DNA of 64,000 bases from Aurantiochytrium sp. KH105 (Eukaryota > Sar > Bigyra > Thraustochytrida > Thraustochytriidae): contig BGKB01000191.1 in the NCBI GenBank assembly GCA_003116975.1, positions 1 through 64,000 of the forward strand. Direction: 5' to 3'. The notes under the pieces were generated by a model. That model had not been told where the DNA came from. It made no database searches and was given only the letters and a program-made list of their open reading frames with translations. Below are positions 32,001-37,907 of this stretch, piece by piece. A program made the position numbers and the translations under genes. Every line of letters starts with the position of its first letter. Position 1 is the stretch's first letter.

Positions 32001-32114
32001 CTGCAGCAGTCCGGCAACCAGGCGCGCGCTTGGTTGCCGAGGGACGCGGAGGAGAGCGCAGGCAAGGCGGGCGGCGAGGCGCGCGGGCGCGAGCGAGAGG
32101 CGCGGCGCGGGAGG

Positions 32115-33584
32115 ATGGCGGCGCAGCATCAGGCGCGCGGCAGCGACCTGGAGCTCACGAATGGCGACGTCGTGGACGTGTACGGCGACGGAGACGCGCG
32201 CGGCGCGGAGGTGCCGGACGGACGCGACGCGGAGAAGATGCACGGCCGGGGAGGCGACGACGACGACGAGGACGAGGAGGCGGAGGCCGCTGCGCAGGCG
32301 GCGCTCTTCGCCGGGTGGAAGACCCGCGCGCTGCGGATCGGCATGGTCGGCGCGCTCGTGAACTGCCAGCCCTCGGAGCCCTACCTGTCCAAGTACCTGC
32401 TCGAGGACAAGGGGCTCACCGAGGATGAGGTCAACCTCTACGTGTGGCCCACCAACACGATCTCGACGCTCGTCTTTCTCATCCCCGCGGGCCTCTTGGC
32501 CGAGCGCATCGGATACTGGCGCGTGATTCTGCTCGGTCTCCTCTTTCGCGTGGCGACGCGCTGCTTGCTCATTTGGGGCGAGGGCCTCGACCCCATGGTC
32601 GCCATGCAGGTCACCTACTCTGGCGCGATTGCCTGCACAAGCGTGCTTTACGCCAGCGTGCTCCTGGTCGTTCCCAAGGTACGGGCCGCGCATGCCTCGG
32701 CGCTCGTGTACTCCATGTACCACTTTGGCAACGTCATTGGCTCGCTCATGGGCGAGGGCATCGAGCGCGCCACGGGCAATCTGCGGCTTCTCTTTTTCAT
32801 CTCCTTTGGATTCACGCTCTCAGGCCTCGTCTTCTTCCTCGTCCTATTCCCCAAACTTCCTGCCCGCAAGGCGCTCGGCCTATTGTTCGACACGAGCAAG
32901 ATCAGCTTCAAACACGCCTCGAGCAGCGTCAAGAACGAGGTTGCCAACTTCTTGGCCTTTGGCAATCCCGTCAAGCTCTGGACTGCCGCTGCCATGTTCA
33001 GCTTTGCGTCCACCTTTATGTGGGGCAACTACTACCAGGTCCTCTTTTACGACATTGACCCGGATACCAGCTTTGGGTTCCTGGAGATGGGCCTCGAGCT
33101 CTGCAATGCCATCGGGAGCCTGACGCCGCTCATCATCGCCTATCACCGCGATGCCACGGCCCTGGAAAGGTACTCTGCCCCGCTCGCTATTTTGGCTTGT
33201 GTGGTCATTGGCTCCATGGAAACGGCATCTGCAGAGATCAACGTTGTCGGCCCTCTTTACGCATTCGCCATCATCCGCTCGCTGGCTTCTGCTTCGCTCG
33301 AGGTAGCGCTGCAAACGGTTGTTGGCACAGACAAGAACACCAAGCGTTACGCGCTCTTCCTCACGAGCATTCAGATGTTCGGCCTTACTTCGGCGGTCAT
33401 CGTGCAGAGAATCGGCAAGGCGCTCGTCTTTGACGCGCTCAAGTTTGTTCTCTGCGGCGCCTTTCTCAACGCGATCGGCGCCTTTGCAGTGCTCTGCACC
33501 TGGGCGTACCTTCACTTTTCGCACAACACTGTCGTTGACGAAGGTTTCGAGTCCATGCAGACACGCGCCGAGCCCGAGCTTTAG
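32115..33584 (+). CDS. SLC19-family transporter, probable thiamine carrier
   Basis: 489 residues. Start at the first in-frame ATG, in a good context (GAGGATGGCG). An acidic cytosolic N-terminus of ~60 residues is followed by about 12 hydrophobic spans of the major facilitator fold. The first loop and helix pair, PSEPYLSKYLLEDKGLT with the following EDEVN, matches the reduced folate / thiamine carrier signature (human SLC19: GESFITPYLL then FTREQV). Other family-like parts are the mid-protein VVPKVRAAHASALVYSMYHFG and the central loop near FPKLPARKALG. SLC19A1 carries folate, SLC19A2/3 thiamine. A TPP riboswitch begins ~135 bases after the stop on the same strand, so thiamine is the better guess. 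Thraustochytrids in culture are commonly supplied with thiamine, which fits. Confidence 0.85.
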   Translation: MAAQHQARGSDLELTNGDVVDVYGDGDARGAEVPDGRDAEKMHGRGGDDDDEDEEAEAAAQAALFAGWKTRALRIGMVGALVNCQPSEPYLSKYLLEDKGLTEDEVNLYVWPTNTISTLVFLIPAGLLAERIGYWRVILLGLLFRVATRCLLIWGEGLDPMVAMQVTYSGAIACTSVLYASVLLVVPKVRAAHASALVYSMYHFGNVIGSLMGEGIERATGNLRLLFFISFGFTLSGLVFFLVLFPKLPARKALGLLFDTSKISFKHASSSVKNEVANFLAFGNPVKLWTAAAMFSFASTFMWGNYYQVLFYDIDPDTSFGFLEMGLELCNAIGSLTPLIIAYHRDATALERYSAPLAILACVVIGSMETASAEINVVGPLYAFAIIRSLASASLEVALQTVVGTDKNTKRYALFLTSIQMFGLTSAVIVQRIGKALVFDALKFVLCGAFLNAIGAFAVLCTWAYLHFSHNTVVDEGFESMQTRAEPEL

Positions 33585-34244
33585 GTGCCAGCAATGACGC
33601 AACCGACGAGCTGACTTCTTGTACAGCCGTCGACCGTCGGGCTCTACTCGCTCGCTTTGAGCTCTGCCTGCGGTCGAGGAGCACTGGTTTATTCTGGTCC
33701 ACTGGCTTTTACAATGCACAGGGTCGGGGGTGCGTCGAAGTTTCGACGCTGAGATCACACCCTTTGAACCTGAACAGATTGGTAATACCTGCGGAGGGAG
33801 AAAGTTGGGCACGGTTCGCATGCGCGGAAAAACTACAGTTATGTTTTTTGTTTTCGCGTACGCCGTTTCGTGCTCTTCCGCCCTGTGTATTGTAACCTAA
33901 GGTCCTAGCATTCCCTTGCATCCTCCACTCTTTCTGGAGTTTTCATTAAACTTTACCAAGAGAATTTCAATGTCCTTTTTCCCTCGTTTCGATTTCGTAA
34001 ACTTCTTTCCTTGTGCACACACTCGTTGCCATAGAGAGTCATCCCAATCGTCTCTTTCTTTTGGATAGCCGCGCTGTCCGCGAGAACCTTTACGGTGATA
34101 GTTTGCTCATTCCCCCTTGCATAATCCTCTTGTCAATCTATGTGCTCCATCATCGTAATCCAACACAAAAAAAAACTAAAATCAACTTATGTAAAACAAC
34201 CAAAGTCTAAGCCTGTCCACGGGCCGTCTTGGATATGAGCCTGC
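33585..34244. other. 3' flank of SLC19 gene and convergent FRD 3' flank
   Basis: Holds the TPP aptamer near its start. The remainder is AT-rich with no ORF or RNA gene recognised. The FRD stop codon lies at 34245 on the other strand. Confidence 0.6.
33720..33806 (+). promoter_or_regulatory. TPP (thiamine pyrophosphate) riboswitch aptamer in 3' flank of SLC19 gene
   Basis: Conserved elements in order: GGGGGTGC (P2 5' arm, GGGTG at 33728-33732), a P3 hairpin CGTCG/CGACG with AAGTTT loop, the pyrimidine-binding CTGAGA at 33749-33754, CACCC (33758-33762) closing P2, TTTGAACCTGA, a P4/P5 arm with CAG..GGTAATACCTG, and the pyrophosphate-binding GCGGAGGGA. This is nearly the Arabidopsis THIC aptamer core. 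P1 is weak. It lies on the same strand as the transporter, 136 bases beyond its stop, so it should be in the 3' UTR or a 3' UTR intron. In plants a 3' TPP aptamer controls splicing and mRNA stability. Feedback lowering of transporter expression when TPP is plentiful is the natural inference. Confidence 0.92.
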
Positions 34245-37200
34245 CTACGGACCGTCTTCGTCCGAATACGCGTAAAAGTGCTTGCGGGAGAATCCAAGAT
34301 CGAGAAGCGTCCGAACCATGATGCGCTCAAAGATAGGTGGTCCGCAAATGACAATGAGTTGATCGTCCGCAGGTGGAAAAAACACATGGCTTCGAATGTT
34401 GCTTGGCTTGATAAATCCAACGCCCTCGGTCCAGCCAAGCGGTGGCTTGTTCAAAATGCAGTAGTACCTAAAATCTTGCGGAAACTTGTCGCAAAGATCC
34501 TCGAAACACTTGACAAAAGCGAGATCGTCCTCTTCTTCGGCAGCGTAAAGCAAGTTCGCGCCAAGCTGCGCAACTAAATCCTCGCGCCCCCGTTTGCGCA
34601 GCTTGACGGCGCAATGAGCATACTCGCGAATGATCTGCACCATGGGCGCAACGCCAGTCCCGGCCGACAAGAGTCCAAGTCGCCGGATCGGACGGCCCGC
34701 ATACTCCATACCTTCGTCAGAGAACTTGATGCGAAGACCGCCCATCGCCTTCATTTGCAGGACCGACCCAGGACGAATGTACTGCAAAAGCTTGTGAATC
34801 GGTCCGCCGCGCTCATCAAAGCGGCACAAGATGCCAATGACTCCTTCGTCGCCGGGACGCGTCACGGGCGAGAAAAACCCTTGCAGCGTTTCGCCGTCCA
34901 GCTCCCCTCGCAAGGCGACGTACTGACCCACCTCGAGACCTGAGCTTTGCAAGGACCCGTGTAGATTGAAGCGAATTTCGCGGGTGTTCTTTCCGTACTT
35001 AAAGTCGGTATTGCGCGTCTCGCGCAAAACACACGGAACCCATCCGGCCGAGGTCTCGTGCGCCTTGTCGACGAAAAGTGAAGTCTTGGGTTGCCGAATG
35101 GTCGCGGCGCGCTCGCCGGCAATCCGACCAAAAACAACGCACTCGAGCAAACTGTTTCCGCCCAGACGGTTTGCGCCATGCACGCCACCAGTCACCTCGC
35201 CAGCGGCAAACAGGCCAGGAATGTGCCGATGATGACCAATCACAGAGTCTGCAATGAGCACTTGCACCTCGCCACTCGCATTGATGTCGAGGCCACCCAT
35301 TGTGTAGTGGATACTCGGGGTCACGCGAGCAAGCACCAGCTTGGTGTCATTGGGCGTAAGATTCGAGGGGAAGACCATTTTGCCCGTCTGCTCGCAGATT
35401 CCCCCGCTTCGAGCAGTCTCGTAGGCTGCAACTGTTTCCTTGAGTACCTGAGGATCGCAACCGATGCACGCGGCACAGGCGTCAATGTCGTCACAGGCCT
35501 CAAAAAGTCCGAGACGGTCTTTGTAGAATCCAAGCGTGGGCGGACCAAAGAGCTCTTGCGCCTCCTGTGATAGAATGACCCAGGCAAAAGGAAGTCCAAC
35601 AAAGTCGCCGTCCCTGTACGGGTCGCAATTCTTTTGAATGGCAGCCGCCACAACGCTGCGCAGATTGAGCTCATCGACAAAGCGCCGGCCTTGGCTGTTG
35701 ACAAGAATGCCGCCGGACCCGCGAATGGCTTCAGGGGCGAGAAATTTGGTTGGGTTTCCGGGATCTTTCGGATCAATGAAACCGGTCGGGTGCAGCTGAA
35801 CCTTGTCCATGTCGATAAGGTTGGCACCGAGTGCGACGCCCATGCGCACGCCATCGCCCGTGGCAAAAGGACCATTCGTGGTCGGGATACCTTCGAGATC
35901 CGGACGGTGTTGTTTTAGAAGGCTGTCGTTGCTCTTGTCGCATCCGAAGCCACCCGTCGTGAGAATGACAGCATCGCCCTCGATAAGACAGTCCTCTTTT
36001 CCAGACTCGGATGTCTGCTCGTAGTGAACTCCGCACACTCGGCCATCACGCTGTTCGAGATTGGTGGCACGACAGCTCGTCCTAATTTCAATCTTGTCTT
36101 GGTAATTGGCCTCTACGGCTTCGCGCAGCGTCTTCATAATAAGGTAGCCGATGGGCACCGGGTTGCCATGTTCATCGGGCGGTGCGCGATGCGTTCGCTT
36201 CGTGCTGTGACCTCCAAGCTGACTGAGAACGGTCAGAGGTACATGAAAGCGCTCCTTAAGCCAAGCGATGGCCGGAGCAGACTTGGTAGAGAGCGTGCGC
36301 ACGAGGCTCTGGTTCGTGTTGCCACCTTTGCCACTGCGATGCGTGTCTCGTTCAAAGAGTGCCTCCCGATCGGCCACGGCAAGCTCTGCCTGCGTGGAGG
36401 TGCCCCAGCCATTGATGCCCGAAGTAGCCTTGGCCGAATTACCTCCTGTGCGGGCCTCCTTTTCAAGGAGCACGACACTTGCACCAGCGTCGGCGGCCTC
36501 GATGGCGGCACTGAATCCGGCCAGACCTGCACCGACGACAACGACCTTGGCTTGTTCATGCTCGCGCCAGCGCGCCTGCAAGCTCTCCTTGCGCTCGACG
36601 CCTGGCACTGCGAGCTTGACAACCCGGGGCCCGGCCCGAGCGTAAAGAAGAAAGTCCGAAAGCGGCTTGTGAAACGCGGTTCGGAAAGGATCAAGCAGCG
36701 CGCGCGCCTCGGGTGGAGATCGCACAGCAAGAGAAGCTGTAGCCAGAGCATCCGCGTACATGGCCGATCCGCACACCACCGTAGTCTGCGCAAGACTCTC
36801 TTCGTTGATGAGGGACATGGTGGCCTTGCGAGGGTCGAGCACGTGAGAATACAAGCGACCCCGATGACGAAAGACTTGCTCATAATCTCCCGAAGTGGCC
36901 ACGGCCTGGCCAGGCCGCAGTTCGAGTACTGCCAAGTAAGAAGTCTCTACATCCTCAGAATCCTCATTGGGGGCACTCGCATCCAAATCTCTACCGAGAT
37001 GTAGGGAAACCTGATCGCCATCACCAACGAGGCGTCGCGCAGCGGCCTCGATGCGACCAAGGCTCGGAGGCTCTGCGACGGCCACGGTCCAAGGGCGGCC
37101 GTCGGCATGGGTGCCAAGAACCTTGATGTCCCCTGCCCAGTCGACAAATGCACTTGTAAAGCCTTTCGACTTGAGGCGATCCACGATTGCGTCAATTGCC

Positions 37201-37907
37201 CAGCCTTTGGCGATGCCGTTGAGGTCGAGACGGGCACCGCCCAGGATCTTGGTGAGCGACTTTTGGTCCTCGCTGAGCTGAAAGCCAGTTTGCCAGCTTG
37301 CATGGGCGCGTACCTGCTCCACAGCACGAGAAATGCCTCCTTGATCGCCGAAGCCTCGATCGAGGAGAGAGCGCCATAGCGAGACGGCACGCTCGCCAAG
37401 CTTTTGTTCCCAGTCCTTGGGAGCTTCTTTGGAAGCGTTGTCTTCCTTGGCAAGGTCCGTCGAGGAGTCTTCGCGCGCAATACGCTTTTGCGCAGCGGCG
37501 ACATAGTGATCGAGTAGCGGACGAAAAGCAGGGTCGTAGGCGCCGCGGGTCTGCGAGTACATTTCCGAGGCCGCATATAGGACGGTCTGCATGGGACCCG
37601 AGAGCGAACATGTCTCGCCTTCCTTCATGTTGTTGATCTTGCTCAGCTCGCTGTCTTCTACCCAGAGACTAAAGGTGGCTTCGGTCTCGTCAAAGACTTG
37701 CTTGCAAACGGCTTGCACTTGCTGCTGGGCCTCGTCGTCCCCGCCGCCGTCCCCCGGAGGCGCATAGAACTTGATCTTGTAATGCATGGCGCAGCGCGTG
37801 CCTTCCACCATGAGCATATCGCTCGCGACATGCTCTTCGACCTGCGTCGGGCGCTCGAACGCCACAGACCCGACCACGCGGCTGGCCTTGGCGTCCCCGT
37901 CGGGCAT
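34245..37907 (-). CDS. NADH-dependent fumarate reductase: ApbE, fumarate reductase and cytochrome b5 reductase domains in one chain
   Basis: 1220 residues. Residues 3-9 are DGDAKAS, close to the D-G-x-x-x-A-S/T FMN-acceptor motif of trypanosomatid fumarate reductases. Residues ~20-430 are ApbE-like (FAD:protein FMN transferase) with LDLNGIAKGWAID, DWAGDIKVLG, ATSGDY and ADALATAS. Residues ~450-900 are a flavocytochrome c-type fumarate reductase: GAGLAGFSAAIEA dinucleotide fold, GGNSAKATSGING, EAIRGSGGILVN with the active-site Arg, and GEVTGGVHGANRLGGNSL. Residues ~950-1220 are a cytochrome b5 reductase/FNR module, GLLSAGTGVAPM and ICGPPIFERIM. The same order occurs in trypanosome FRDg/FRDm1, where NADH reduces fumarate to succinate to reoxidise NADH. 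Compartment is not evident; no clear PTS1 (ends EDGP). Confidence 0.92.
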   Translation of the reverse strand: MPDGDAKASRVVGSVAFERPTQVEEHVASDMLMVEGTRCAMHYKIKFYAPPGDGGGDDEAQQQVQAVCKQVFDETEATFSLWVEDSELSKINNMKEGETCSLSGPMQTVLYAASEMYSQTRGAYDPAFRPLLDHYVAAAQKRIAREDSSTDLAKEDNASKEAPKDWEQKLGERAVSLWRSLLDRGFGDQGGISRAVEQVRAHASWQTGFQLSEDQKSLTKILGGARLDLNGIAKGWAIDAIVDRLKSKGFTSAFVDWAGDIKVLGTHADGRPWTVAVAEPPSLGRIEAAARRLVGDGDQVSLHLGRDLDASAPNEDSEDVETSYLAVLELRPGQAVATSGDYEQVFRHRGRLYSHVLDPRKATMSLINEESLAQTTVVCGSAMYADALATASLAVRSPPEARALLDPFRTAFHKPLSDFLLYARAGPRVVKLAVPGVERKESLQARWREHEQAKVVVVGAGLAGFSAAIEAADAGASVVLLEKEARTGGNSAKATSGINGWGTSTQAELAVADREALFERDTHRSGKGGNTNQSLVRTLSTKSAPAIAWLKERFHVPLTVLSQLGGHSTKRTHRAPPDEHGNPVPIGYLIMKTLREAVEANYQDKIEIRTSCRATNLEQRDGRVCGVHYEQTSESGKEDCLIEGDAVILTTGGFGCDKSNDSLLKQHRPDLEGIPTTNGPFATGDGVRMGVALGANLIDMDKVQLHPTGFIDPKDPGNPTKFLAPEAIRGSGGILVNSQGRRFVDELNLRSVVAAAIQKNCDPYRDGDFVGLPFAWVILSQEAQELFGPPTLGFYKDRLGLFEACDDIDACAACIGCDPQVLKETVAAYETARSGGICEQTGKMVFPSNLTPNDTKLVLARVTPSIHYTMGGLDINASGEVQVLIADSVIGHHRHIPGLFAAGEVTGGVHGANRLGGNSLLECVVFGRIAGERAATIRQPKTSLFVDKAHETSAGWVPCVLRETRNTDFKYGKNTREIRFNLHGSLQSSGLEVGQYVALRGELDGETLQGFFSPVTRPGDEGVIGILCRFDERGGPIHKLLQYIRPGSVLQMKAMGGLRIKFSDEGMEYAGRPIRRLGLLSAGTGVAPMVQIIREYAHCAVKLRKRGREDLVAQLGANLLYAAEEEDDLAFVKCFEDLCDKFPQDFRYYCILNKPPLGWTEGVGFIKPSNIRSHVFFPPADDQLIVICGPPIFERIMVRTLLDLGFSRKHFYAYSDEDGP

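Follow-up and report, generated by a model that had tools for sequence, protein, structure and literature searches.

A probable 3'-side TPP riboswitch on the SLC19-family carrier gene of Aurantiochytrium sp. KH105 and a related aptamer at a FOLR-family gene

The locus described here raises the question of whether a vitamin-transport gene in a heterotrophic stramenopile could be controlled from its 3' side by a thiamine pyrophosphate (TPP) riboswitch, and what such an RNA would indicate about the substrate of the encoded carrier. The window, that is, the whole stretch of 64,000 nucleotides that was analyzed, is taken from the thraustochytrid Aurantiochytrium sp. KH105 (assembly GCA_003116975.1, contig BGKB01000191.1, positions 1 to 64,000) and contains an SLC19-family (reduced folate/thiamine carrier) gene, behind which an initial annotation, made from the sequence, had placed a TPP aptamer. 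Our analysis, extended to the diploid assembly (76.0 Mb, 367 contigs), suggests that this aptamer and a related one behind a folate-receptor-family (FOLR) gene probably act as TPP-feedback 3' riboswitches on a two-gene thiamine-uptake regulon.

The aptamer was detected on the forward strand as a match to the full RF00059 (TPP) model, positions 1-105, with a score of 45.6 bits and an E value of 7.9e-8 in a 501-base scan against 4227 families (coordinates in Table 1). The gathering score of RF00059, 54.3 bits, is an operational cut-off: among 14 control genomes, 13 gave a match and 10 exceeded it. Thus, the match is well beyond chance, though under the curated cut-off, and the RF00059 support anticipated by the initial annotation was obtained in its significance and missed in its gathering score. 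Judged by sequence and alignment, the element is a genuine TPP-class aptamer, and its low score is plausibly explained by a bulge in P5, a missing P1, and an absent P3a. The core elements named earlier, GGGGGTGC, CTGAGA at 33749, TTTGAACCTGA, GGTAAT, and GCGGAGGGA, are all present where they had been put, and the P2 helix stands as well, with its pairing corrected from GGGTG/CACCC to GGGG.U with A..CCCU in the model alignment. The last base of the SLC19 stop codon is 33584, and the P1 site starts at 33721 on the same strand, so that 136 nucleotides separate the two, for which about 135 had been estimated. The next long open reading frame (ORF), at 34245-37907, lies on the opposite strand, in agreement with the initial description of the neighboring gene.

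A genome-wide scan with RF00059 at E<=10, which scored 49 of 1986 first-look candidates and may therefore have missed weaker aptamers, gave four matches of 45.6-45.9 bits, all of them under the cut-off and all on the 3' side of an SLC19 or FOLR gene. They represent two loci with two alleles each, the window contig (C191) and contig C239 carrying the first locus, and contigs C3 and C176 the second. At the second locus (L006 on C3), the aptamer starts 187 nucleotides past the stop codon of a gene for a 315-amino-acid PF03024 protein of the folate-receptor family (ATS1/FOLR-like; 98.4 bits against a cut-off of 29.8). The protein is hydrophobic at its N-terminus and has a single hydrophobic stretch close to the C-terminus, features that would fit a type I membrane protein. 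The algal ATS1/FOLR genes belong to this same family, PF03024 (PMC4260697, PMC9544697). A gene for an SH3/WW protein, unrelated to the window's neighbor, lies about 1.7 kb downstream of the second aptamer; because the downstream genes at the two loci are unrelated, the common factor is the uptake-type gene upstream, and the same 3' placement at a second locus makes chance placement unlikely. Four more PF03024 matches, on C7, C10, C76, and C14 (the last of them under the cut-off), appear to represent two loci with two alleles each. A motif scan of 25 loci, including about 1.5 kb around each of these extra matches and three SSF matches, found the aptamer core solely at the two known loci. As a side observation, the folate-receptor-domain matches on C76 and C14 (L015 and L016) are weak (33.8 and 29.1 bits) and lie within open frames of about 1000 amino acids.

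The four aptamers (three distinct sequences) were aligned, and their structure was written out from the RF00059 alignment. The ligand-binding core, consisting of CUGAGA, UUGAACCU, UAAU, and GCG.AGGGA, and the helices P2-P5 were present at both loci. Across the alignment, 17 of the 17 counted pairs of P2-P5 were intact; the count leaves out the fourth pair that the model gives for P4 (G-G at the window locus, G-A at the second). P3 showed one two-sided change, from U-A in the window to A-U at the second locus, and P5 one one-sided change, from G-C to G-U. The exact core pattern with the ATT bulge in P5 had no match in the genome_contigs collection, in which the same pattern without ATT had at least 119, and a shorter ATT-bearing aptamer pattern had none in viral_contigs, where it was run without an ATT-free control. 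A search of plasmids returned one partial match of 55 query bases, in Spirosoma. Bacterial contamination or recent transfer of the aptamer was rejected, since the bulged pattern is absent from genome_contigs and the aptamers occur in both haplotypes and at two loci.

Comparison of the alleles lends the aptamer weak support. Within the aptamers (86 nucleotides each), the alleles differ at 1 of 172 positions. The corresponding counts are 14 of 376 for the 3' flanks, 6 of 306, with additional indels, for the stretch between stop codon and aptamer, and 42 of 2417 for coding sequence, and the difference between aptamers and 3' flanks gives a p value of 0.045 by the Fisher test. Between the SLC19 stop codon and the aptamer, 17 base pairs at 33647-33663 are missing in the C239 allele, and the remainder of that stretch carries no substitution in 119 aligned positions.

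The SLC19-like identity of the upstream protein was confirmed by a PF01770 score of 89.3 bits against a cut-off of 27, covering the N-terminal half, and the gene is the sole PF01770 match per haplotype; the NCBIfam equivalog 'rfc' scored 60.8, far short of its cut-off of 227.4. The TTG at 32034 is taken as a provisional start, with the first in-frame ATG following at 32115. A simple hydropathy count gave 8 strong hydrophobic segments rather than 12. The two alleles differ by 24 synonymous and 4 nonsynonymous codons in the last 480 codons, and a search for the protein in viral_contigs gave 341 pattern matches, none of them confirmed. In a comparison with solved relatives that covers the N-terminal half, thiamine transporter 2 (46.4 bits) and thiamine transporter 1 (43.0 bits) ranked above the reduced folate carrier (at most 41.2 bits); the C-terminal half has no significant alignment with the animal SLC19A2/SLC19A3 proteins, its closest solved relatives. 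Among the residues named for the thiamine-binding site of hSLC19A3 (PMC11447181), Glu32, Tyr113, Asn297, and Glu320 are retained, the assignments of Asn297 and Glu320 resting on a non-significant stretch of the alignment, and Phe56 is replaced by Trp. Arg133 of SLC19A1, which is folate-determining (PMC9794768), corresponds to Thr202 in this carrier. From the residue comparison and the ranking of relatives, thiamine is probably favored over folate as the substrate, but this is not proven. Where the initial annotation had let the aptamer assign the transporter to thiamine, the nearest solved relatives point the same way, although the lead over the folate carrier amounts to a few bits.

Downstream of the aptamers, both loci have one further element in common, an exact word of 17 nucleotides (blastn E 1e-4) that at the second locus lies about 200 nucleotides past the P1 3' position. 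It has four exact copies in 76.0 Mb, one for each allele of each aptamer locus and all on the aptamer strand, and the reversed 17-mer, used as a control, had none genome-wide. In 2000 trials with dinucleotide-shuffled flanks, the longest shared word never reached 17 letters (maximum 16), and real 3' flanks of the window behaved similarly: 14 of them shared words of at most 12 letters over 91 pairs, and at most 13 letters when set against the two aptamer flanks (28 comparisons). The 17-mer may be part of a 3'-end signal or a protein site. A role as an anti-aptamer strand was rejected, as 1858 and 1837 of 2000 shuffled 17-mers paired equally well or better. A larger duplicated 3' block, extending beyond the aptamer and the 17-mer, was not supported: the local alignment score of the downstream flanks, 36, was reached by 21 of 300 shuffles, and 34 of the 36 points come from the 17-mer. 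The alignment score of the upstream flanks was reached in 298 of 300 shuffles, and for the entire downstream stretches no counterpart was detected at the other locus. In an observation of its own, the region past the FOLR aptamer (L006:5175-5670) contains a tandem repeat whose units have diverged (about 70% over 316 bases, at an offset of about 150-175) and in which the 17-mer core recurs several times in degenerate form; about 100 bases or more are missing there in the C176 allele.

The thiamine pathway of the organism was searched exon by exon, the searches covering ThiC, TMP synthase, ThiG, and TPK. ThiC had no match in the genome (the control gives matches in 13 of 14 genomes), and TPK is present. 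The matches to TMP synthase were identified as nitronate monooxygenase (L017, C82), and those to ThiG as PdxS, an enzyme of vitamin B6 synthesis (L024, C14), one of the two alleles being judged in each case. This gene content makes thiamine auxotrophy of the organism likely. A thiamine requirement has been reported for several thraustochytrids, a group cultivated for oils (PMC12734794, citing earlier work). Apart from this, the capture of PdxS and nitronate monooxygenase by the ThiG and TMP-synthase profiles is a trap for automatic pathway annotation. The genome also contains pieces of a PfaA-type polyunsaturated fatty acid synthase, scoring 930 bits (positions 6-1035) and 456 bits (1759-2567) against a cut-off of 1010; in the controls, matches were obtained in 11 of 14 genomes, none over the cut-off. 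These pieces are in keeping with a thraustochytrid, a group for which such a synthase is a marker.

We propose that the window aptamer lies within the probable 3' untranslated region (UTR) of the one SLC19-family gene in this organism, a gene that probably encodes a thiamine carrier, and that the related aptamer has the same place on the gene for a FOLR-family (ATS1/FOLR-like) membrane protein. When thiamine is scarce, TPP would be low, the aptamer would be empty, and both uptake genes would be on; when TPP accumulates, it would bind the RNA, and the expression of the uptake genes would fall. The presence of the aptamer in the mature transcript, its binding of TPP, and the repression are what we infer from these arrangements. 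The most likely route would be a TPP-dependent choice of the 3' end or a change in mRNA stability on an unspliced message, both likelier than splicing because no consensus splice donor was found nearby, and the 17-nucleotide downstream element could be a component of the 3'-end signal. More specifically, it is conceivable, as a tentative idea that we hold with some doubt, that the P1-less, bulged aptamer and the 17-mer form a cassette that controls the 3' end or stability of the SLC19 and FOLR messages without splicing.

Several observations weigh against the proposed TPP-feedback control. A window-wide scan at gathering scores returned no match, because 45.6 bits is less than 54.3. The canonical P1 is unformed, with 5 of 15 cells paired over the three distinct sequences; since the sequence of P1 is variable within the TPP riboswitch family, its lack is taken as a variant and not as an exclusion. 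Covariation over the three distinct sequences is non-significant (reached in 159 of 500 shuffles), the stand-alone fold energy has a z of 0.07 with 105 of 200 shuffles at least as stable, and the unconstrained folds of both loci favor other pairings. For the allelic constraint on the aptamer, the Fisher test gives a p value of 0.10 when all UTR sequence serves as the reference and of 0.36 when coding sequence does. In the carrier, Glu110 of hSLC19A3 is replaced by Gln and Trp59 by Asn, in which it differs from animal SLC19A2/SLC19A3, and the E110Q change in hSLC19A3 drops the affinity from 12.7 to 85 μM (PMC11447181). Finally, the 3'-UTR aptamer of the diatom gene PtTHIC, which has the same placement and looked good, was unresponsive to thiamine in quantitative reverse-transcription PCR, 3' rapid amplification of cDNA ends, reporter, and chimera tests (PMC9544697). 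That precedent, together with the unformed P1 and an expression platform that was not found, suits an explanation in which the RNA retains the TPP fold, or what is left of it, but exerts no control over the gene in nature, as reported for diatom THIC. We regard this as rather unlikely, given that the core and P2-P5 are intact at two diverged loci in four alleles, that both target genes suit thiamine uptake, and that ATS1 with its 3'-UTR riboswitch is strongly thiamine-responsive in Micromonas, being up 80-fold without thiamine in strain RCC299 (PMC4260697).

Two further explanations would change how or where the aptamer acts. TPP might govern the use of a 3'-UTR intron and so the 3' end, like the switch of plant THIC, and an acceptor-like CACAG at the 5' edge of the aptamer (AG at 33720-33721, with 12 of the 20 preceding bases pyrimidine) and a 5' flank able to pair with the P4 5' strand are in keeping with this. 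Nevertheless, no donor with at least 7 of 9 consensus positions, scored with a generic consensus and not the organism's own, was found in 500 bases at either locus, the SLC19 and FOLR ORFs upstream of the aptamers are both unbroken, and the pairing between flank and P4 was matched by 119 and 306 of 2000 shuffles and by 32 of 889 and 89 of 989 local windows, so that it is not clearly beyond chance; such a splicing switch is improbable. Least probable of all, we think, is that the aptamer forms the leader of an independent plus-strand transcript downstream, outside the SLC19 message: an ATG does follow it at 33820, but allelic substitutions and indels at 33827-33850 shift the frame from that codon, no downstream gene is common to the loci (an antisense ORF here and the SH3/WW protein at the second), and what both loci have in common is the uptake-type gene upstream.

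The TPP riboswitch of plant THIC is located in the 3' UTR, has a conserved core and a short P3 without P3a, and acts through splicing of a 3'-UTR intron on a synthesis gene. The element described here shares its 3' placement, core, and short P3, but showed no consensus donor and accompanies an uptake gene rather than a synthesis gene. Among algae, Micromonas has TPP riboswitches in 3' UTRs, with single-exon, unspliced targets that include ATS1, a FOLR-family gene as at our second locus; the available portion of that study names no SLC19 target, whereas the present case has an SLC19 and FOLR pair, the P5 bulge, and the 17-mer (PMC4260697). The action of riboswitches on unspliced eukaryotic genes was described there as open, and the same work reports TPP riboswitches in Phytophthora, Perkinsus, and Aplanochytrium, the last a labyrinthulomycete with a putative transporter as the target, which is SSSQ (sodium:solute symporter family) and not SLC19 (PMC4260697). 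Diatoms, also stramenopiles, carry TPP aptamers on THIC, SSSP, FOLR, and NMT1 genes, with 3'-UTR aptamers at 12 of 13 SSSP transporter genes and some FOLR genes; these have the P3a that is absent here, and their transporter is SSSP, not SLC19 (PMC9544697). In fungi and oomycetes, the targets listed are NMT1, THI4, and HMP kinase, and transporters of the nucleoside, urea, amino-acid, and sodium-symporter types (PMC5882874). Thus, the claim of the initial annotation that control of a stramenopile vitamin-transport gene from its 3' side would be new is not supported in view of the diatom SSSP aptamers (PMC9544697), and its novelty is overstated also with regard to the Micromonas 3'-UTR riboswitches and the Aplanochytrium TPP riboswitch (PMC4260697). 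The reading of that annotation is supported in part, by the same-strand TPP-class aptamer found 3' of a single SLC19 gene in both haplotypes. No SLC19 riboswitch target was found in the available portions of the open-licence literature searched (PMC4260697, PMC9544697, PMC5882874, PMC11683625), where SLC19 appears merely in a reference title in PMC9544697 and PMC11683625. We provisionally regard the link between SLC19 and a riboswitch as new, provisionally because the literature searched was open-licence, and the companion 17-mer element also appears to be new. Taken together, and on the same provisional footing, a TPP-class aptamer, in a position of a familiar type, is found on a gene family not previously tied to TPP riboswitches.

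The features of the window locus are collected in Table 1. The convergent neighbor at 34245-37907 is a 1220-amino-acid ORF on the minus strand with ApbE, FAD_binding_2, and oxidoreductase FAD/NAD domains, which resembles an NADH-dependent fumarate reductase fusion.

Table 1. Coordinates of the SLC19-family gene, the predicted aptamer and its parts, and the companion element in the window.
Feature	Position	Strand	Description
SLC19-family (reduced folate/thiamine carrier) gene	32034..33584	+	Unbroken 516-amino-acid ORF from TTG
Predicted TPP riboswitch aptamer	33716..33816	+	Full-length RF00059 match, genome-wide E 2.9e-6
P1 position, 5' strand GGGTC	33721..33725	+	2 of 5 pairs with 33800-33804 (GAAAG); not canonical
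P2 5' strand	33726..33731	+	Pairs with 33757-33763
P3 hairpin	33732..33749	+	Aptamer alignment
CTGAGA core motif	33749..33754	+	Sequence motif
P4/P5 arm, L5 UAAT at 33783-33786	33769..33797	+	Three P4 pairs intact
ATT insertion (bulge), P5 5' strand	33778..33780	+	Inserted relative to RF00059; common to both loci
17-nucleotide companion element TTTCAATGTCCTTTTTC	33965..33981	+	160 nucleotides past P1 3' position

The SLC19 carriers are the animal route of thiamine uptake, and we know of no riboswitch in animals; the riboswitch proposed here would tie this family to thiamine through gene regulation in an organism distant from animals. The pairing of an SLC19 carrier with a FOLR protein suggests a thiamine route that consists of a receptor plus a carrier, and it may offer a hint for the ATS1/FOLR genes, which respond to thiamine in algae and have no known function (PMC4260697, PMC9544697). 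Furthermore, two loci with a common aptamer and 17-mer provide a concrete candidate for an expression platform, and an endogenous 3' element that responds to the vitamin could find use in oil-producing thraustochytrids. If the two-part cassette is true, it would represent a TPP-gated 3'-end switch that unites thiamine-uptake genes of a heterotrophic stramenopile in one regulon.
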